This document shows, piece by piece, positions 4,367 through 33,089 of a stretch of 38,879 nt of DNA. Where the stretch lies: the IMG/VR virus record IMGVR_UViG_3300046713_000106, positions 1 through 38,879 of that record. One strand, written 5' to 3'. The translations under genes and the position numbers were made by a program. The notes below the pieces were generated by a model that was not told the DNA's origin, searched no databases, and was given only the letters and a program-made list of their open reading frames with translations. Positions within the stretch are counted from its first letter, which is position 1. Each line of letters opens with the position of its first letter. The stretch comes from a virus.

Positions 4367-6019
4367 TCAGGCTTCCAGCGTGGCCTCGTATACCCCGCTG
4401 CTTGGGCGCCAATCCTCCGGTCGGTCGGGGTCAGGTTTCCCGGCTGTTTGGGAGCCGATGCGCTCCGGTGCTTCCATCAGCGCGCCGGCCAGCGAGTCCG
4501 GATCGTCGTCTGGCTGCCGGGTGATCGCCGGGTTGAAGCTGCGCAGCGTGTCGTAGGCCGGGCCCTCCAGCACCGTGGTATGCGCCCAGAGCTTGCCGGA
4601 CGTCAGCGGCCCCTCGATGGCCTCCATGATTCGCTTGTTCTTGTTGATCGTCTCGTGCTTGGCCGTGACACCGACGTGATGCTTCAGCCTGGCCTGCTTG
4701 ATCGCGGCGCGCAGCACGGCCGGCGCAAAAGTGCCGGCGCCGTTCGTCTCGACGATGACCTTCGGGATGTGCAGCTGGCGGATCAGCGCGACCAGCTGGT
4801 GCACCTGGCCGCCGATGATGGTCTTCCCGTCGTCGGTGAACTCGGCCACCTCGCCGGTCAAATGCGCGGCGCGGTGCCAGTAGCTGTTGCCGATGGCGTC
4901 CTGGAACACCACCGACAGCGACGACACGTCGGAGTAGAGCTTCCCGCCTGATGGATCCCACTTGCAGGAGCAGCCGACGATCTGCGCCGAGCCCAACCAC
5001 ATCGAGACGACCTTGTTGGCCGTCTTCAGCACCGGCTCCACCTCGTATGCGATCAGCTTGTCCGGATCCAGCCGCACCTCGGTCAACGGCTTAGCCTCCA
5101 GCATGTACTGCGAGTCCCAGGCATTGAAGGTGCGGGTCTCCTTGCGGCGGATCTCGATCTCGGTCCGGGTGAAGCGTTCCGGCCAGGCGCACATCGAGGC
5201 GATGTCGATCACCGCACCGGGCGGCACCGGGAAGATCACCGCGCCGTTCTTGAATTGGAAGTGGATTCCCTCGGTCAGCAGCCGGGCCTGCTTGTGGATC
5301 CCGGCCATCACGTACAGCCCGTCCGGGCCGATCGGGTGCGGGAACGGGTAGCGCGTGCGGGAGCTCGTCTTCTCCTCGTAGCGGACCGAGTGGGCGAAGA
5401 GCGAGATCTTGAGCACGGCTGCACCTCCTGCGATCTGCTCCGGGTAGATCGAGTCGTGGGTGTGGGGCGTGCCGATGTAGGTCTTCTGGGCGCCGGGCAC
5501 GGCGATGTGGGTTGATTCGCTGATGCGCTGGCGCAGCTTCAGCCGGGCCTCCGGCGTTTCGATGTTGCCGGGCACCTCGATGTCGTCGAAGTCGACGGCG
5601 TCGGCGCGGGCGGCGGTAGCGTTGCTGGTCACGCCATTGGCCCGCATCGAGGCGTTACGCGCGTCCTTCGCACCGTTGACCCAGAACCGCTTGGCGCCCG
5701 GCCGGCGCGGCAGGATTCCGCCGCACAGCGGATGGTTGCGCAGCACGTTGATGACGTCGGCCGTCAGCATCCCGGCAGTCGGCCCATCGGCGGACCACAC
5801 CAGCGAGCGGTGCGTGCGGTCGCGGTACAGGCGCCAGGCCTTGTAGACCGCATAGATGGTGGACTTCGCCGCCCCGCGGAACACCATCATCACGCGCTCG
5901 TGGTCGTCGGTCGTCTCCAGCCAGTTGCAGATCCGGACATGCAGCAGCGGAATCGTCCAGCCCTGCACGCGGGCCCACATGACGAAGAAGGTCAGAAAAT
6001 TGACATCACGGTTTGCCAT
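4367..6019 (-). CDS. terL: Terminase large subunit, T7 gp19-like
   Basis: 550 residues, close to T7 gp19 (586). The packaging ATPase has Walker A FRGAAKST at residues 47-54 and Walker B AVDFDDIE at 141-148. The C-terminal nuclease has RNase H-like acidic residues in KWDPSGGKLYSD (Asp355) and IVETNGAGTF (Glu423). It pumps DNA into the prohead through the portal and cuts concatemers. The start at 6019 lies 14 bases inside the small-subunit gene, so translation is coupled. T7-type terminases usually make defined ends with direct terminal repeats. The last 60 codons contain one copy of the 21-bp repeated motif (4430-4450). Confidence 0.93.
   Translation of the reverse strand: MANRDVNFLTFFVMWARVQGWTIPLLHVRICNWLETTDDHERVMMVFRGAAKSTIYAVYKAWRLYRDRTHRSLVWSADGPTAGMLTADVINVLRNHPLCGGILPRRPGAKRFWVNGAKDARNASMRANGVTSNATAARADAVDFDDIEVPGNIETPEARLKLRQRISESTHIAVPGAQKTYIGTPHTHDSIYPEQIAGGAAVLKISLFAHSVRYEEKTSSRTRYPFPHPIGPDGLYVMAGIHKQARLLTEGIHFQFKNGAVIFPVPPGAVIDIASMCAWPERFTRTEIEIRRKETRTFNAWDSQYMLEAKPLTEVRLDPDKLIAYEVEPVLKTANKVVSMWLGSAQIVGCSCKWDPSGGKLYSDVSSLSVVFQDAIGNSYWHRAAHLTGEVAEFTDDGKTIIGGQVHQLVALIRQLHIPKVIVETNGAGTFAPAVLRAAIKQARLKHHVGVTAKHETINKNKRIMEAIEGPLTSGKLWAHTTVLEGPAYDTLRSFNPAITRQPDDDPDSLAGALMEAPERIGSQTAGKPDPDRPEDWRPSSGVYEATLEA
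4430..4450 (-). promoter_or_regulatory. 21-bp repeated motif upstream of the tailspike gene
   Basis: Identical over 21 bases to 18248-18268. Read on the minus strand it has the core AAACAGCCGGGAAACCTGAC. It lies 104 bases before the tailspike start, inside the 3' end of the terminase gene. In T7 a late promoter (phi-17) likewise precedes the tail-fibre gene. The GGGAAA in the core resembles the initiating GGGA of T7-type promoters. Promoter function is inferred from position and conservation only. Confidence 0.45.
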
Positions 6020-26747: not shown

Positions 26748-27226
26748 GCCGCCACCCTCCCCGCCAGCAACTCCATCAGCAGCTTGGCCTTGGCTTCGGC
26801 CACCTCCGCACGCTTGTTGGCCTCGTCGGCCCGCCGCTCGGCCTCGGTCTTCACCATCACCAGCGTGCAGCCGAGCTGGTAGGCGATCCACTCGGGATAG
26901 ATGGTGTTGCCGGCCGCTTCCGCACGATCGGCGATGCGCCGGACTGCGAACCAGCCGTGGCAGATCCGGTCGTACCGGCCGTGCGCGTCCTGGTGCTGAT
27001 GGCACATGAACGGCACGTTCTCGGCCACAGCCTTGAAGGCGTCGGACTGGGTCTGCAGGCAGCCGTTTGGCACGGTGCCGGCACGGAATGCGCAGGTCTT
27101 GCAGCGTTCGTCGGGCTCGCCAGCCAGCGCCAGGATGGCGCACTCGGCATCAGCGAACCGGGCCGTCTGCTCGCCCAGCGCGCGCCCCTCGGGCGTCACG
27201 CGGTGGTGATCGTGCGCTTCGCGCAT
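26744..27226 (-). CDS. Cys/His-rich phage protein with C-terminal coiled coil, 160 residues
   Basis: The middle holds CKTCAFRAGTVPNGC, then MCHQHQDAHGRYDRICHGW: two Cys/His clusters able to bind zinc (about residues 42-92). The C-terminus (VKTEAERRADEANKRAEVAEAKAKLLMELL) is a strong coiled coil. It is the second gene of the leftward operon, behind the Cro-like gene, where lambda-like phages put regulators (cII position). A regulatory role is inferred only from place; the family of this Cys pattern is seen in several phage genomes without known function. Confidence 0.6.
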   Translation of the reverse strand: MREAHDHHRVTPEGRALGEQTARFADAECAILALAGEPDERCKTCAFRAGTVPNGCLQTQSDAFKAVAENVPFMCHQHQDAHGRYDRICHGWFAVRRIADRAEAAGNTIYPEWIAYQLGCTLVMVKTEAERRADEANKRAEVAEAKAKLLMELLAGRVAA

Positions 27227-27229
27227 GAC

Positions 27230-27433
27230 TCAGGCCGCCTTGGCGGTGGAGTCGGCAGCGACCAGATAGGCGTGCAAGTCCTTCAGCGTGCCGAATCCGG
27301 GGTTCGGAATGTGGCCGTTGACGAACTTGGAGATCCAGGAGTAGCTGACGCCGGACTCCTTGGCAATCGTCTGCCATTCGCCGCGCCGCTGTTCGAGTGC
27401 GGCTCGAACGTCCGTGTCAAGTTGGGTGCTCAT
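27230..27433 (-). CDS. Cro-like helix-turn-helix repressor
   Basis: 67 residues with an XRE-type helix-turn-helix: GEWQTIAKESGVSYSWISKFVNGHIPNPGFGTLKDLHAYLVA (about 18-60). Size, divergent orientation to the repressor gene and position as first gene of the leftward early operon match lambda Cro. It likely binds the three operators at 27445-27505; the first operator ends only 12 bases upstream of its ATG. No Shine-Dalgarno sequence is obvious before that ATG. Confidence 0.82.
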   Translation of the reverse strand: MSTQLDTDVRAALEQRRGEWQTIAKESGVSYSWISKFVNGHIPNPGFGTLKDLHAYLVAADSTAKAA

Positions 27434-27444
27434 AGCGCCAGTGT

Positions 27445-27505
27445 CGCAAAGTTTTGCGCACTAGTCTAGCAACACTTTGCGCAGCAGTTCTAGCAAAGTA
27501 TTGCG
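27445..27505. promoter_or_regulatory. Three 14-bp operators between cro-like and repressor genes
   Basis: O1 is CGCAAAGTTTTGCG (27445-27458), a palindrome apart from its central GT. O2 is AGCAACACTTTGCG (27468-27481). O3 is AGCAAAGTATTGCG (27492-27505). Their centres are 23 and 24 bases apart, the same spacing as lambda OR1-OR3. O3 ends directly before the repressor ATG at 27506. Two more copies lie at 28919-28955. Binding by repressor and the Cro-like protein is inferred. Confidence 0.88.
27463..27471 (-). promoter_or_regulatory. Possible extended -10 of the leftward early promoter
   Basis: On the minus strand TGCTAGACT fits an extended -10 (TGnTATAAT) between operators O1 and O2. Transcription would start near 27455, inside O1, about 22 bases before the Cro-like ATG. 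No good -35 is visible, which extended -10 promoters tolerate. Occupation of O1 or O2 would block it. Confidence 0.35.
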
Positions 27506-28246
27506 ATGCAGAAAAAGACCCTGAATCAACAGCTGGCGGAGAACCTGGCGGCGTTGATGTCCGAACGAAAACTCAGCGCCAACCAGCTGGGCAAGAAGGC
27601 CGGCCTATCGCCTCGCACCCTGGCGAACTACCTGAAGACAGACCACAACCCGACCGACAAGGGTAAAGAGCGTTCGGCGAAGCTGACCGAGGTGGAGAAG
27701 TTGGCAGAGGCTCTCAATGTCCCGTCCGTTCTCCTGCTGACGGAGTTCCAGAAGGAGGTTCTTTCTGATCTCCAAAAGAGGGTTCTGTCCGAGCCGGGCC
27801 GCCGCTTTGTGATTCATGCCGCGCCAGGCACCGGCAAGACCGCCACGGCGATGAAGTTGATCGAGAAGTATCTAACTGCCGGAGAAACAGTCATTGTCCT
27901 CAGTGACATGATTCGTCCGCACTCGGCGACCCGCCGCGATATTGTGGGAAACCTCCTGCATCGACTGGCGAACAACCCCGACGATGCCGAAGTAGTCAAA
28001 GAAATAGAGACCTTGATCGAGCCTGCCATTGCGTCGCCAGCGAGAGGGGACGGAATGTTCTCCACGCCGAAGCCCGTTCTTGACGTGGCGATCAGTGCCG
28101 TGGCCGCGGCAGAGTCTGTCGCGGCAGCATTTCGGTCATCAGGAAAGAAGCCATCGACGGATGAAGTCTTAGATGCTATCGAGTTGGAGATAAAGAATCA
28201 GCAGGAGCGGCAGCGCAAGGAAAGAAACGCGAAGGTCTCGCGCTAG
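27506..28246 (+). CDS. Repressor-position protein: XRE helix-turn-helix joined to a P-loop region
   Basis: 246 residues. The N-terminal XRE domain spans residues 8-77 (LAALMSERKLSANQLGKKAG, SPRTLANYLK). Instead of a LexA-like peptidase, residues 99-136 read RRFVIHAAPGTGKTATAMKL, then ETVIVLSDMI: a beta strand, Walker A (APGTGKT, 106-112), a helix and a second strand. No clear Walker B follows. The end is a charged helix (EIKNQQERQRKER). MuB/TniB-type ATPases also pair a small HTH with a P-loop domain, and SF1 helicases start similarly; this could be a truncated relative of either. Divergent from the Cro-like gene with three operators between them, so it is almost certainly the lysogeny repressor. 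There is no ribosome-binding site, so a leaderless mRNA is likely. Confidence 0.78.
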   Translation: MQKKTLNQQLAENLAALMSERKLSANQLGKKAGLSPRTLANYLKTDHNPTDKGKERSAKLTEVEKLAEALNVPSVLLLTEFQKEVLSDLQKRVLSEPGRRFVIHAAPGTGKTATAMKLIEKYLTAGETVIVLSDMIRPHSATRRDIVGNLLHRLANNPDDAEVVKEIETLIEPAIASPARGDGMFSTPKPVLDVAISAVAAAESVAAAFRSSGKKPSTDEVLDAIELEIKNQQERQRKERNAKVSR

Positions 28247-28332
28247 CACGCGCTGGTGTTGAACGATGAATCGCGTGCTTGCCGAAAACTAAGGAGCTGC
28301 TGTTTCATGAAGTCTGTACACAGGGAGGATTT

Positions 28333-28620
28333 ATGAGTTTTCGAATCACGGCTGTTGTCGTCACACTTGCCGCGCTCGCCGGCTGCGCCTCTACGGGCGT
28401 TGTGCAGACCGACAAGGACGTCTTCCTCATCTCGAAGCAAAGCGCAGCCGGCATCTTCGGCACGCCGGATGGCGTTCGGGCTGACATCTATGCCGAGGCC
28501 AACGCCCATTGCGCCAAGTCCAGCAAGGCAGTCGAAACGGTGAGCGCAGAGGTCAAGGACGCGAAGCCATTTGTTCGGCAGGGTAGCGCTTCACTTCAAT
28601 TCCGCTGTATCGACAAATGA
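28333..28620 (+). CDS. Lipoprotein in the lysogenic operon, 95 residues
   Basis: MSFRITAVVVTLAALAGCAS is a signal sequence with lipobox LAGC and the acylated cysteine at residue 18. The mature part (DVFLISKQSAAGIFGTPDGVRADIYAEANAHCAKSSKAVETVSAE) resembles small periplasmic lipoproteins with a compact alpha/beta domain. GGGAGG lies five bases before the ATG at 28333. The gene lies downstream of the repressor with no terminator between, so it is probably made in the lysogen. A role in surface change or superinfection exclusion is an inference. Confidence 0.78.
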   Translation: MSFRITAVVVTLAALAGCASTGVVQTDKDVFLISKQSAAGIFGTPDGVRADIYAEANAHCAKSSKAVETVSAEVKDAKPFVRQGSASLQFRCIDK

Positions 28621-28639
28621 CACAGGGAGTGATTGAACG

Positions 28640-28855
28640 ATGAGGCCATTCACGAAGCGACTCTGCATCGTGCTGTGGGTACTCTGGGCCCTAATCGGCG
28701 CGGCCTGGGCCATCGGTGCTCTGTTTGTCACGAGCAACATCTCGGGCGGCGACGTCGGCGCATGGGTCGGATCGGCACTCGTATCGGGCCTTCTGCTTGT
28801 CCTGTTCCAGTACCTGCTCACCGGCCTATGGCGCCCGGCTGACTTGATTAAATAG
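28640..28855 (+). CDS. Two-helix membrane protein in the lysogenic operon, 71 residues
   Basis: Two hydrophobic helices: LCIVLWVLWALIGAAWAIGALFV (about 8-30) and GAWVGSALVSGLLLVLFQYLL (about 41-61), with a basic N-terminus (MRPFTKR), hence both termini probably cytoplasmic. A GGGAG ribosome-binding site precedes the ATG by about ten bases. It is the last gene before the terminator at 28876. Together with the lipoprotein it looks like a lysogen-expressed pair, perhaps blocking superinfection. A holin function is possible by topology but unlikely in a repressor operon. Confidence 0.72.
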   Translation: MRPFTKRLCIVLWVLWALIGAAWAIGALFVTSNISGGDVGAWVGSALVSGLLLVLFQYLLTGLWRPADLIK

Positions 28856-28875
28856 CCGCCGCATCAGCCCTGCTC

Positions 28876-28899
28876 AGCCCGCCCAGTGCGGGCTTTTTT
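28876..28899 (+). terminator. Intrinsic terminator of the repressor operon
   Basis: AGCCCGC (28876-28882) pairs perfectly with GCGGGCT (28888-28894) across a five-base loop and is followed by TTTTT. It stands 21 bases after the membrane-protein gene and just before the operators and promoter of the rightward operon, so it insulates lysogenic from lytic transcription. Confidence 0.9.
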
Positions 28900-28918
28900 G
28901 CGTCTGTTCGCATTGCCG

Positions 28919-28960
28919 CGCAAAACTTTGCTTGTATGCCGCGCAAAGTTTTGCTACATT
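28919..28960 (+). promoter_or_regulatory. Two operators and the rightward early promoter
   Basis: CGCAAAACTTTGCT (28919-28932) and CGCAAAGTTTTGCT (28942-28955) match the operators at 27445-27505, again with 23 bases between centres. A promoter fits: -35 TTGTAT (28932-28937), 17 bases, -10 TACATT (28955-28960). The second operator fills the spacer and touches the -10, so bound repressor would exclude polymerase. The first gene starts at 28997. This is the counterpart of lambda OL/PL. Confidence 0.85.
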
Positions 28961-28996: not shown

Positions 28997-29386
28997 ATGA
29001 ACACCCTGCACTGCCCCGTCACCCGCGCCGAGAACAACTTCGCGGCCCGCCTTGAGCCAAAGCAATCGCTGCACGAGGCTGCGCTGACGCTGCTGGCGAA
29101 CGAGTTCGTGAACGCGATGCGCGGCGATGCGAGGCTGGCGAAGGTCAGCACGCCGGGCTTCGCTGACGAGATCGGCGGCCTGCATTCGATGACGCTGGTC
29201 GATGCCGTCAGCGACCTGTTCGCTGGCAAGGATGGCGATGACGCGCTGGCCGAGCTGCTGGGCATCGTGTCCGCTGCTTCCAAGGGCGAGCAAGTGCAGT
29301 TCCGCGCCGCGCGCTGGATTGCGGTGCGGGCTGGGGTTCATGCCGAGTTCCACGCTGACGACTTGGCGAGGGCCTTGCAGCAATGA
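28997..29386 (+). CDS. First gene of the rightward operon, unknown function, 129 residues
   Basis: GGAGG five bases before the ATG at 28997 sets the start; a longer frame upstream would run through the operators. The protein is helical: SLHEAALTLLANEFVNAMRG, then VDAVSDLFAGKDGDDALAELLGIVSAASKG and a C-terminal RAARWIAVRAGVHAEFHADDLARAL. In lambda this place is held by the antiterminator N, but the sequence is acidic, not Arg-rich, so it is not N-like. It is strongly expressed early if the promoter call is right. Family unknown. Confidence 0.65.
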   Translation: MNTLHCPVTRAENNFAARLEPKQSLHEAALTLLANEFVNAMRGDARLAKVSTPGFADEIGGLHSMTLVDAVSDLFAGKDGDDALAELLGIVSAASKGEQVQFRAARWIAVRAGVHAEFHADDLARALQQ

Positions 29387-29742: not shown

Positions 29743-29936
29743 CCTGCCAATCCTGCAACGGCTGCTGCCCCGCGCCCCAGGCCTGCCACCAGCCCGACCC
29801 GCGCGACGTGGACATGTCGCATGTCTTCCCGCTGGAGCGCGTGATTCGTCGCCATCCGTGGACCGTTCCGGTCTTCGTGGTGGTCGTCTACCTGATCGGC
29901 GCTGCGATCGATACCCCACAACTCTGGAGCAACTGA
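29739..29936 (+). CDS. Cys-rich head plus membrane helix, 65 residues
   Basis: MTCQSCNGCCPAPQAC carries five cysteines in 14 residues, followed by a basic segment (LERVIRRHPW) and one hydrophobic helix (TVPVFVVVVYLIGAAI, about 42-57). The arrangement parallels the 63-residue gene at 23757-23948 on the other strand. An inner-membrane location with a cytoplasmic metal-binding head is expected. The stop TGA shares its last base with the ATG of recT at 29936. Function unknown. Confidence 0.6.
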   Translation: MTCQSCNGCCPAPQACHQPDPRDVDMSHVFPLERVIRRHPWTVPVFVVVVYLIGAAIDTPQLWSN

Positions 29937-30772
29937 TGTCTGAACTCGTCCCTACCTCCCGCACGGAAGCCGCTGAAATCGGCAACCCGTCGGCGTTCCT
30001 CTTCGACTCTTCCCGCATGCAGGCGCTGATGGACTTCGGCGACATGATGTCGCGCGCCGTCGTCACGGTGCCGAAGCACCTGCACGGCAAGCCGGCCGAC
30101 TGCCTGGCGATCACGCTGCAGTCGATGCGCTGGCGCATGGATCCGTTCGTGGTCGCAAGCAAGACGCACGTCGTCAACGGCAACCTGGGCTACGAGGCGC
30201 AGCTGGTCGTCGCCGTGCTCAAGAGCTCCGGCGCCGTGAAGGGCCGCCCGCACTACGAGTACCGCGGCGACAACAACACCCTCGAATGCCGCGCCGGCTT
30301 CATCCCGGCCGGCGAGGACGCCGTCGTCTGGACCGAGTGGCTGTCGATCGCCGGCATCACCACCAAGAACTCGCCGCTGTGGAAGGTGAACCCGAAGCAG
30401 CAGTTCGGCTATTTGCAGGCCCGCAACTGGGCGCGCCTGTATGCGCCTGATGCGCTGCTCGGCGTCTACACCGACGACGAGCTGCAGGTGATCCCGTCGA
30501 AGCCGACCGAGGTGCACATGGGCGCGGCCGATGAAGTGCGCCCCGCCCTGCCCGCCTACCCGGAGGCCGACTTCGCCAAGAACCTGCCGGCCTGGACCAA
30601 GGTGGTCGAGAGCGGCAAGAAGACGGCGGCGGATCTGCTGGCGATGTTGTCCACCAAGGCCGCGTTCAGCCAGGCGCAGCAGGACCAGGTGCTGGCGCTG
30701 AAGGCCGAGCCCGCCGATGTCGTCGACGAGTTCGTCACGGACATGGAAGCCACTGAAGGATCCGAGCAATGA
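29936..30772 (+). CDS. recT: RecT-family single-strand annealing protein
   Basis: 278 residues. Family pattern: MDFGDMMSRAVVTVPKHLHGKPADCLAITLQSMRWRMDPFVVASKTHVVNGNLGYEAQLVVAVL, then RCR-type GRPHYEYRGD, and WLSIAGITTKNSPLWKVNPKQQFGYLQARNWARLYAPDALLGVYTDDEL. RecT proteins coat single strands left by a 5'-3' exonuclease and anneal them to complementary DNA. The partner exonuclease is encoded at 31290-33089. The C-terminal tail (from about 215) is acidic and variable. The ATG at 29936 overlaps the previous stop by one base; 26 in-frame codons upstream lie within the preceding gene. Confidence 0.93.
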   Translation: MSELVPTSRTEAAEIGNPSAFLFDSSRMQALMDFGDMMSRAVVTVPKHLHGKPADCLAITLQSMRWRMDPFVVASKTHVVNGNLGYEAQLVVAVLKSSGAVKGRPHYEYRGDNNTLECRAGFIPAGEDAVVWTEWLSIAGITTKNSPLWKVNPKQQFGYLQARNWARLYAPDALLGVYTDDELQVIPSKPTEVHMGAADEVRPALPAYPEADFAKNLPAWTKVVESGKKTAADLLAMLSTKAAFSQAQQDQVLALKAEPADVVDEFVTDMEATEGSEQ

Positions 30773-31302
30773 AACTGCCGGCGCGCATCGAATCAAAGAT
30801 TCAGCGCGTCCCCTTCTGTGGCTGCTGGCTATGGATGGGCTCGGGTGGGCGCTACGGCTATGTCTGGTTCGAGGGGAAGCTGCGGAGAGCGCATAGCGTC
30901 GTTTTCGAGTTGTCCGGAGGATCAGTCCCAGAAGGCCAGGAGCTGATGCACACCTGTGACATCGGGTTGTGCGTCAACCCCGATCACTTGGTTGCAGGCA
31001 CTCACCAAGAAAACATGACCGACATGGTGCGCAAGGGCCGTTCTCGCTCCCTTAGCGGACCAGACCACTGGTCGCACAGGAATCCCGAGAAGGCGCGCGC
31101 GATCGCTCGCGAAAACATCGTCCGGACGCATCACTCCGGCGCGCTCAACAACAACGCGAAAGCCACGCCTGAAGTTGTTGCGCGCATTCGGTCTGCGCAT
31201 TCGGCCAGCCCTTCAACCTCAATGGCCGACCTCGGCCGCCTCTTCGGCCTTGGCCGTGAGCAAACCCGAAAAATCGTCAAGGGAATCGTATGGAACTCAT
31301 GA
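30769..31302 (+). CDS. HNH endonuclease, homing type
   Basis: 177 residues. The HNH region reads FCGCWLWMGSGGRYGYVWFEGKLRRAHSVVFEL, then MHTCDIGLCVNPDHLVAGTHQENMTDMVRKGR, with conserved His/Cys ligands (HTCD..CVNPDHL) as in phage HNH homing enzymes. The C-terminal part (ATPEVVARIRSAH... LGRLFGLGREQTRKIVKG) is a DNA-binding helix-turn-helix. It sits between recT and the exonuclease, genes normally adjacent, so it looks like an inserted mobile endonuclease. GC content is lower than in its neighbours. Confidence 0.88.
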   Translation: MKLPARIESKIQRVPFCGCWLWMGSGGRYGYVWFEGKLRRAHSVVFELSGGSVPEGQELMHTCDIGLCVNPDHLVAGTHQENMTDMVRKGRSRSLSGPDHWSHRNPEKARAIARENIVRTHHSGALNNNAKATPEVVARIRSAHSASPSTSMADLGRLFGLGREQTRKIVKGIVWNS

Positions 31303-33089
31303 ATTTTCTGCAGGGAAGTCCTGAGTGGCTTCAGTACCGCCGAAACAAGTTCAACGCCTCCGACGCGCCGGCCATGATGGGCGTCTCGCCCTACAAGAGC
31401 CGGGCCGAGCTGCTGCGCGAGCTGCACACGGGCGTGGCCCAGCACGTTGACGCCGGCACACAGAAGCGCTTCGACAACGGCCACCGCGCCGAAGCGCTGG
31501 CGCGGCCGCTGGCCGAGGAGTTCATCGGCGCCGAGCTGTTCCCGGTGACGGCATCGAGCGGCCGGCTGTCGTCCAGCTTCGACGGCCTGACGATGGACGA
31601 GACGATCAGCTTCGAGCACAAGGCGCTGAACAACGAACTGCGCAAGTGCTTCGCCCAGATGGAGACGATCGCGCCAGCGCACCGCGAGCGCGCCGATGGC
31701 AGCGAGCTGCCGATCTACCACCGCGTGCAGATGGAGCAGCAGTTGCTGATCAGCGGCGCCGAGCGCGTACTGTTCATGGCCAGCCAATGGGATGCCGACG
31801 GCGAACTGGTTGAAGAGCAGCACTGCTGGTACTACCCGGACCTGGCACTGCGCGCCGAGGTCGTCGCCGGCTGGGCCCAGTTCGAGAAGGACCTGGCCGA
31901 GTACGCAATGCCGGAAGCTGCCGCGCCGGCGCCGGCCGGCAAGGCCCCGGAGTCGCTACCAGCCCTGATGATCGAGGTCACCGGCAAGGTGACGGCCAGC
32001 AACCTGGTCGAGTTCAAGAAGACCGCGCTCACGGCCATCCAGTCCGTGAACCGCGACCTGAAGACTGACCAGGACTTCGCCGACGCGGCCAAGGCCGTGA
32101 AGTGGTGCGCCGACATCGAGGAGCGCCTACAGGCCGCCAAGCAGCACGCGCTGAGCCAGACGGCCAGCATCGACGCGCTGTTCAAGACGATGGACGACAT
32201 CAGCGCCGAGGCCAAGCGCGTGCGCCTGGACCTGAATGGACTGGTGACGCGCCGCAAGACCGAGGTAAAGGAGGAGGCGGTGGTCGCTGCGCGCAATGCG
32301 CTGGCCGCGCACTATGCCGCGCTGAACAGCGAACTGGCGCCGGCCTTCCTGTCGGCTCCGCTGACCGACTTCGCCGGCGCCATCAAGGGCCTGCGCTCCT
32401 TCGACAGCATGCAGGACGCGCTGGACACGCTGCTGGCCAAGTCGAAGATCACCGCCGACACCGCGGCCCGCGGCATCCGCACCAATCTGGCCGCCTACAA
32501 GGAACAAGCCACCGGCTTCGAGTTCCTGTTCGCTGACCGGGGCCAGCTCCTGCACAAGGCGGCCGACGACTTCGCGCTGGTCATGCGGTCGCGCATCGAC
32601 GCCCACAAGGCGGCCGAGGCGAAGAAGGAAGAAGACGCACGCGAGCGCATCCGTGCCGAAGAGGCCGCCAAGCTGCAGGCCGAAGCAGCAACGAACATTC
32701 CAGCGCAGGACTCGCAACAGGTTTTGAAGGCAGAGGCGGCAACGCCCGACGCTACCGGCCGCGATGTTCCTGCCAGCACCAGCCCGGTCGGCGGACCTAT
32801 GGGCGCAGGGCAACCAGCCGCCGCTGGCCCAACCGTGGGCTTGGGCTCCTTCCGCGCCATCCACCCGGCCGCGGCCGCGCTGCGCAATGAGAAGCCGACG
32901 CTGAAGCTCGGGGAGATCTGCACTCGCCTGGGTTTCGTCGTCGGTGCCGAGTTCCTGGCCGTCCTTGGCTTTGATGCCAGGAAGGAGCGCGGAGCCTGTC
33001 TCTACCGCGAGGGCGACTTCAAGGCGATCTGCGCCGGCATCTCGGCGCATGTGCTGGCCGTGGGCGCTGAAGTCGCCCAGGCCGCGTGA
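31290..33089 (+). CDS. YqaJ-type (lambda Exo-like) recombinase exonuclease with DUF1351-like extension
   Basis: 599 residues. The N-terminal nuclease (about 1-205) has GSPEWLQYRRNKFNASDAPAMMG, GHRAEALARP, SSFDGLTMDETISFEHKA and YHRVQMEQQLLISGAE; Asp98, Glu109 and Lys111 form the metal-binding set. Residues about 220-460 are a helical, charged region like the DUF1351 family often found as a separate gene beside RecT. The last 75 residues (LKLGEICTRLGFVVGAEFLAVLGF) form a third small domain. It resects double-strand ends for RecT. The start at 31290 has AAGGGA upstream; ATG 31299, with an ATGA overlap, is the alternative. Confidence 0.88.
   Translation: MELMNFLQGSPEWLQYRRNKFNASDAPAMMGVSPYKSRAELLRELHTGVAQHVDAGTQKRFDNGHRAEALARPLAEEFIGAELFPVTASSGRLSSSFDGLTMDETISFEHKALNNELRKCFAQMETIAPAHRERADGSELPIYHRVQMEQQLLISGAERVLFMASQWDADGELVEEQHCWYYPDLALRAEVVAGWAQFEKDLAEYAMPEAAAPAPAGKAPESLPALMIEVTGKVTASNLVEFKKTALTAIQSVNRDLKTDQDFADAAKAVKWCADIEERLQAAKQHALSQTASIDALFKTMDDISAEAKRVRLDLNGLVTRRKTEVKEEAVVAARNALAAHYAALNSELAPAFLSAPLTDFAGAIKGLRSFDSMQDALDTLLAKSKITADTAARGIRTNLAAYKEQATGFEFLFADRGQLLHKAADDFALVMRSRIDAHKAAEAKKEEDARERIRAEEAAKLQAEAATNIPAQDSQQVLKAEAATPDATGRDVPASTSPVGGPMGAGQPAAAGPTVGLGSFRAIHPAAAALRNEKPTLKLGEICTRLGFVVGAEFLAVLGFDARKERGACLYREGDFKAICAGISAHVLAVGAEVAQAA

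Follow-up and report, generated by a model that had tools for sequence, protein, structure and literature searches.

The 38,879-nucleotide IMG/VR record IMGVR_UViG_3300046713_000106, called the window over its whole length, carries at positions 27506-28246 (+ strand) a gene whose 246-residue product, P0001, is well supported by sequence comparison as the lysogeny repressor of this virus. The open reading frame (ORF) ends exactly at these two positions, its frame is unbroken, and the codon-position pattern is kept along all of it. Two Pfam families are matched above their cut-offs, HTH_3 (E = 1.2e-6, 28.9 bits versus 23), which marks an XRE helix-turn-helix (HTH), and ResIII (E = 5.6e-7, 30.1 bits versus 22.5, residues 78-135), which marks a P-loop. 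Pfam finds no S24 peptidase in P0001, although the identical search detects S24 in the repressors of two related loci, L003 and Bordetella avium phage vB_BaM-IFTN4 (IFTN4); the preliminary description was therefore right that the gene in the CI position lacks a LexA/S24 peptidase.

Three parts can be distinguished along the gene. Residues 1-75 (27506-27730, +) form a CI-family HTH by homology to other repressors. Residues 96-165 (27791-28000, +) appear to form half a P-loop module, namely strand, Walker A (27818-27841), helix, strand and helix, as judged from ResIII, a DnaB-like profile and the secondary structure in AlphaFold2 (AF2) models. Residues 166-246 (28001-28243, +) are predicted to be helical and have no detectable relatives; between residues 132 and 246, Pfam finds no S24, AAA-lid or other domain.

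The gene lies in a region laid out as an immunity switch. A divergent Cro-like repressor gene of 67 codons occupies 27230-27433 (- strand; phrog_9425, E = 2.3e-11). A 12-bp near-palindrome, GCAAAGTnTTGC, is present in five exact copies, versus 0.02 expected, and no further copy occurs anywhere else in the window. Three of them lie in the 72-bp gap between cro and the repressor gene, at centre-to-centre distances of 23 and 24 bp: O_R1 (GCAAAGTTTTGC, 27446-27457, +), O_R2 (GCAAAGTGTTGC, 27469-27480, -), which is directly upstream of a -10-like TAGACT (27468-27463) of a putative P_R, and O_R3 (GCAAAGTATTGC, 27493-27504, +), which abuts the repressor start codon. The remaining two, at 28920-28954 with centres 23 bp apart, are located 3' of a terminator-like hairpin and just 5' of the recT operon: O_L2 (GCAAAGTTTTGC, 28920-28931, -) and O_L1 (GCAAAGTTTTGC, 28943-28954, +), the latter between TTGTAT (28932-28937) and TACATT (28955-28960). 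As the hexamers were read by eye, we place O_L1 and O_R2 inside early promoters provisionally; a stricter promoter scan of 27200-28950, a range that ended short of the full P_L site, found none. No Shine-Dalgarno sequence is visible before the start codon at 27506, and a leaderless repressor transcript, like that of lambda cI from P_RM, is possible.

The head, Cro and operators recur together in other phages, for which recT served as the probe. The HTH (76 residues) is identical at 31-34 positions (41-45%) to those of the repressors of IFTN4, of L124/L120 and of L123, and the Cro proteins share 31-38 of 67 residues with that of the window. L120 is a prophage-type region found by genome search in the family of a Burkholderiales metagenome-assembled genome, G001, which itself carries a RecT 76% identical to that of the window. 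Its repressor of 128 residues is 46.6% identical to residues 1-72 of P0001 (E = 2.8e-8; 3.1e-9 in the genome search), a divergent Cro homologue lies beside it, and L120/L121 have five operator sites at one mismatch or less, split 3+2 between the gap and the second control region. Repressor, Cro and GCAAAGTnTTGC operators are found in the same combination on the viral contig L124. The short repressor of L120/L124 thus resembles P0001 in its HTH (34/76 identical), its Cro partner, its operators and the 3+2 layout; it differs in that it stops about 50 residues past the HTH and has neither P-loop nor S24. The IFTN4 repressor, vBBaMIFTN4_52 (UOK17244.1), is likewise similar in its HTH (31/76), in Cro (38/67) and in having GCAAAGTnTTGC in both control regions, two sites in each (2+2), but it has 312 residues with a C-terminal S24 peptidase (5.1e-13) and no P-loop. 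IFTN4 belongs to a phage set for which a temperate lifestyle and CI/Cro genes have been reported (PMC10269795). The L123 repressor has the same head family and a short tail, and the motif is absent from its gap at one mismatch or less. Among 141 scanned loci (1.3 Mb), clustered copies of GCAAAGTnTTGC were found only beside these repressor/cro pairs, and at most single isolated copies elsewhere.

The case for a repressor role is strong because the operators are shared with two independent phages that carry homologous HTH and Cro proteins, and in this the proposal of a lysogeny repressor in the CI position gained strong support. We also considered whether P0001 is an accessory or MuB/DnaC-like protein within the immunity cassette. 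The MuB-family profile phrog_296 does match residues 1-164 (E = 8.3e-9), but the HTH of P0001 has homologues in the repressors of two phages that share its operators, no HTH gene other than cro was seen in the cassette, and AAA_22 scores below its cut-off; we regard this alternative as very unlikely.

Since the head and the operator are shared while the tails differ, the P-loop part reads as a C-terminal module that was swapped onto an operator-binding head of known kind. One head family carries three tails: S24 in IFTN4, a short tail in L120/L124 and L123, and the P-loop module in the window. Another locus, L003, is the closest recT relative examined (RecT 77% identical). It has the gene order of the window and five operators in the 3+2 arrangement (at 565-631 and 1873-1907, versus 0.03 expected), but its CI carries S24 (3.3e-22) and its operator is TTAACTnnGGTT instead of GCAAAGTnTTGC; from these sequences, L003 and the window would differ by a swap of immunity specificity, the layout being conserved. 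In L092, three operator-like repeats accompany an HTH repressor that lacks S24.

The nature of the C-terminal half can be stated in part. The ResIII match stays above its cut-off (E = 2.4e-5) in residues 95-246 alone, from which the head and the linker helix have been cut away. The Walker A motif, AAPGTGKT (residues 105-112), lies between a strand and a helix. The bare Walker A pattern arises in 377 of 20,000 shuffles of P0001 (1.9%), so that the pattern by itself is weak; the ResIII profile match is not. No Walker B was found in P0001, the sole run of the hhhh[D/E] type being VAAAE at residue 199, inside a predicted helix. The AF2 secondary structure gives a strand at 100-105, a helix at 111-124 and a strand at 128-133 in a low-confidence model (mean predicted local distance difference test score, pLDDT, 52), followed by helices at 189-212 and 218-245 (pLDDT about 56-80). 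The order of strand, Walker A, helix and second strand without a clear Walker B, which had been read from the letters, was thus reproduced by the ResIII match, the AF2 elements and the motif scan. In the better AF2 model, the P-loop region has two strands only and helices afterwards. Fold assignment from the models was rejected for their poor quality, and Foldseek against PDB gave nothing below E 0.1, with HTH proteins as the top rows. A complete P-loop core, with only two strands predicted, is unproven more than it is excluded; the C-terminal half looks like half a P-loop fold, followed by about 80 residues without relatives.

Kinship with named P-loop families was examined by profile. The helix at residues 76-95 supplies the "Q-motif-like" helicase part of the ResIII match. 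The short repressors have a tail helix with which it can be aligned by eye. A helicase origin of that part is therefore improbable, and the graft onto the repressor head would start near residue 95. The region of motif I of superfamily 1 and 2 (SF1/SF2) helicases is present at residues 78-135 only: the ResIII match does not go beyond position 62 of the 164 in its profile, nothing is matched past residue 135, and helicase motifs II to VI and the two RecA-like domains are absent. SF1/SF2 helicase identity was rejected on these grounds and because P0001 is too short in total. A DnaB-like ATPase profile aligns over residues 102-165, that is, Walker A, the second strand and the next helix. Its extension past residue 136 is weakly supported, as 16 of 500 tail shuffles reach an equal score, and residues 137-246 alone score -1.1 bits. 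A DnaB-like RecA fold with a core from Walker A to Walker B was thus not found, the profile covering residues 102-165 only, and a 148-residue alignment reaching the Walker B of a DnaB-like protein was rejected as proof of anything beyond residue 165. AAA_22 (23.0 bits versus a cut-off of 27), AAA_30, nSTAND3 and DnaB_C all remain below their Pfam cut-offs. Membership in MuB/TniB was rejected, as AAA_22 is below its cut-off and the phrog_296 match spans the P-loop together with an HTH that is demonstrably of the CI family. The expected significant P-loop match was therefore obtained, whereas neither the likeness of HTH plus P-loop to MuB/TniB nor the assignment to SF1 helicases held, and the AF2 core was incomplete; the resemblance of the second strand to SF1 is generic, since the P-loop draws weak matches from SF2, SF1, DnaB and AAA profiles alike.

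The fusion is rare. No relative of the whole protein was found in IMG/VR, INPHARED phages, PLSDB plasmids or GTDB contigs; for IMG/VR and GTDB the queries were short peptide patterns matched exactly, which exclude only close relatives and could miss distant ones. Among 401 genomes of the family there was one HTH-only relative and no fusion, among 399 of the order there were generic P-loop or weak HTH matches and no fusion, and among 398 of the phylum there was no match. Of 16 matches to an HTH profile in 399 genomes, none has Walker A. Walker A DNA patterns in IMG/VR recovered DnaB-like and other P-loop proteins only. In 80 helicase-related loci, no Walker A ORF of 120-450 residues resembled an HTH-P-loop fusion, and tblastn with P0001 matched no fusion there, its sole result being a weak HTH match in L065. 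A P-loop lysogeny repressor was not found in the open-access literature. To call the architecture little described is fair, with the qualification that it is a single example and that, judged by sequence, repressors without S24 are common among the relatives but a P-loop in the place of S24 is not.

The lack of a second copy, on a single contig, could indicate an assembly chimera in which an HTH gene was joined to an unrelated P-loop gene. However, the frame is intact, and the O_L operators, 3' of the P-loop half, have the motif of the O_R operators 5' of it; the two sides are therefore parts of a single immunity region, and we consider a chimera highly improbable.

We judge it very probable from these comparisons that P0001 is a CI-type repressor of a lambda-like immunity region, in which the S24 half has been swapped for a module that starts with a P-loop and in which induction proceeds without RecA-stimulated autocleavage. 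Three points weigh against this: conservation of the operators could be explained by Cro alone, the two AF2 models (of P0001 alone and with a four-row alignment) reach mean pLDDT of only 47 and 52, and the C-terminal half, with its Walker A, is known from one sequence. As a CI-type repressor, P0001 would bind the five GCAAAGTnTTGC sites as a dimer through its XRE head and close P_R and P_L, as the operators, homologues and layout suggest, and O_R3 near the start codon would probably provide autoregulation. The S24 half of the homologous repressors would have been replaced through a domain swap by the P-loop-starting module and about 80 mostly helical residues, and dimer or oligomer formation in the stead of S24 is the most likely role of this module. 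If it binds a nucleotide at all, binding is more likely than hydrolysis, because no Walker B is recognisable. Since the self-cleaving peptidase is absent, RecA-stimulated self-cleavage is unlikely and induction would need another route, such as an antirepressor, host proteolysis, or a nucleotide or ligand state. Six near-matches to LexA boxes were found in the window, fewer than by chance and thus no excess, and Pfam detected no antirepressor family in the ten further window proteins that were scanned.

The contribution of the module itself is less certain. It may be a fortuitous or degenerate remnant, a tolerated graft on an HTH and short tail helix that suffice as in the 128-residue relative. 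The L120/L124 repressor has the same HTH family, Cro and operators without it, the P-loop fold is incomplete, and third-position G+C is 0.79 in the HTH and lower, 0.66-0.67, beyond it, which suggests a different origin; but 150 residues follow the graft point in open frame, long for a useless tail, and the Walker A residues are intact. We regard a remnant as possible, though doubtful. Alternatively, ATP (or another NTP, or ADP) at K111 might control dimerisation or DNA binding and thereby tie induction to the energy or the DNA/replication state. For such gating speak the intact Walker A inside a significant P-loop match, the similarity to DnaB-like ATPases through the second strand and the next helix (residues 102-165), the position of D133 adjoining the place where those ATPases have "LEM", and the absence of the S24 sensor. 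It is nevertheless unlikely, as no Walker B or further strands are recognised, the example is single, and L120, L123 and L092 have lysogeny-type regions without such a module. The fuller claim, that a nucleotide-binding module replaced S24 so that an ATP/ADP or DNA-metabolism signal gates dimerisation or operator binding and prophage induction, seems to us rather unlikely.

Between the repressor gene and O_L lie two small + strand genes without a family, one lipoprotein-like (28333-28620) and one for a membrane protein (28640-28855), and both are candidates for a role in superinfection exclusion or lysogenic conversion; at this position L003 carries a pair of small ORFs (1194-1616 and 1620-1805). 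The terminator-like hairpin that would close the cassette is at 28876-28894 (+), and two such sites were found where shuffles give 1.8. The first gene downstream of O_L (28997-29386, +; no family) is in an operon with recT (29936-30772, +; Pfam RecT, 4.9e-19), which is followed, within 29936-33089, by a RecE-like exonuclease gene (phrog_7655, E = 1.3e-180). This recombination module is apparently under the immunity switch. In the related prophage L092, a long 12/18-nucleotide tandem repeat occupies 4513-4998 of the early region, where the + frame 4418-4930 encodes a Gly-rich repeat, and L007 has a comparable LRPTLRPA repeat ORF at 104-427.

These loci amount to a natural swap experiment, in which a single type of operator-binding head, with its operator sequence and Cro family, is joined to three tails (S24, short and P-loop). 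A comparison of the tails would reveal the share of the tail in repression and the cue by which each phage leaves its host. If the P-loop binds nucleotide, energy or DNA state could lead to prophage induction without RecA-stimulated self-cleavage. SOS-independent induction modules are a precedent for induction without a DNA-damage cue, and they differ in that the abstract on them mentions no P-loop repressor (Silpe et al. 2023, PMC10432266). MuB/TniB proteins (AAA_22) resemble P0001 in having an HTH and then a P-loop; P0001 differs in its CI-family HTH and in that neither Walker B nor other AAA+ motifs were found in it. The closest parallel in layout is phage lambda, where the repressor gene and cro diverge, three operators spaced by about 23-24 bp lie between them, and O_L stands ahead of the recombination operon. 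P0001 shares with lambda CI the N-terminal XRE HTH, the divergent cro, the gap operators of similar spacing and the separate operators at a second promoter. It differs in its C-terminal half: lambda CI bears the self-cleaving S24 domain, with the Ser/Lys dyad for RecA-stimulated autocleavage, and P0001 has none.
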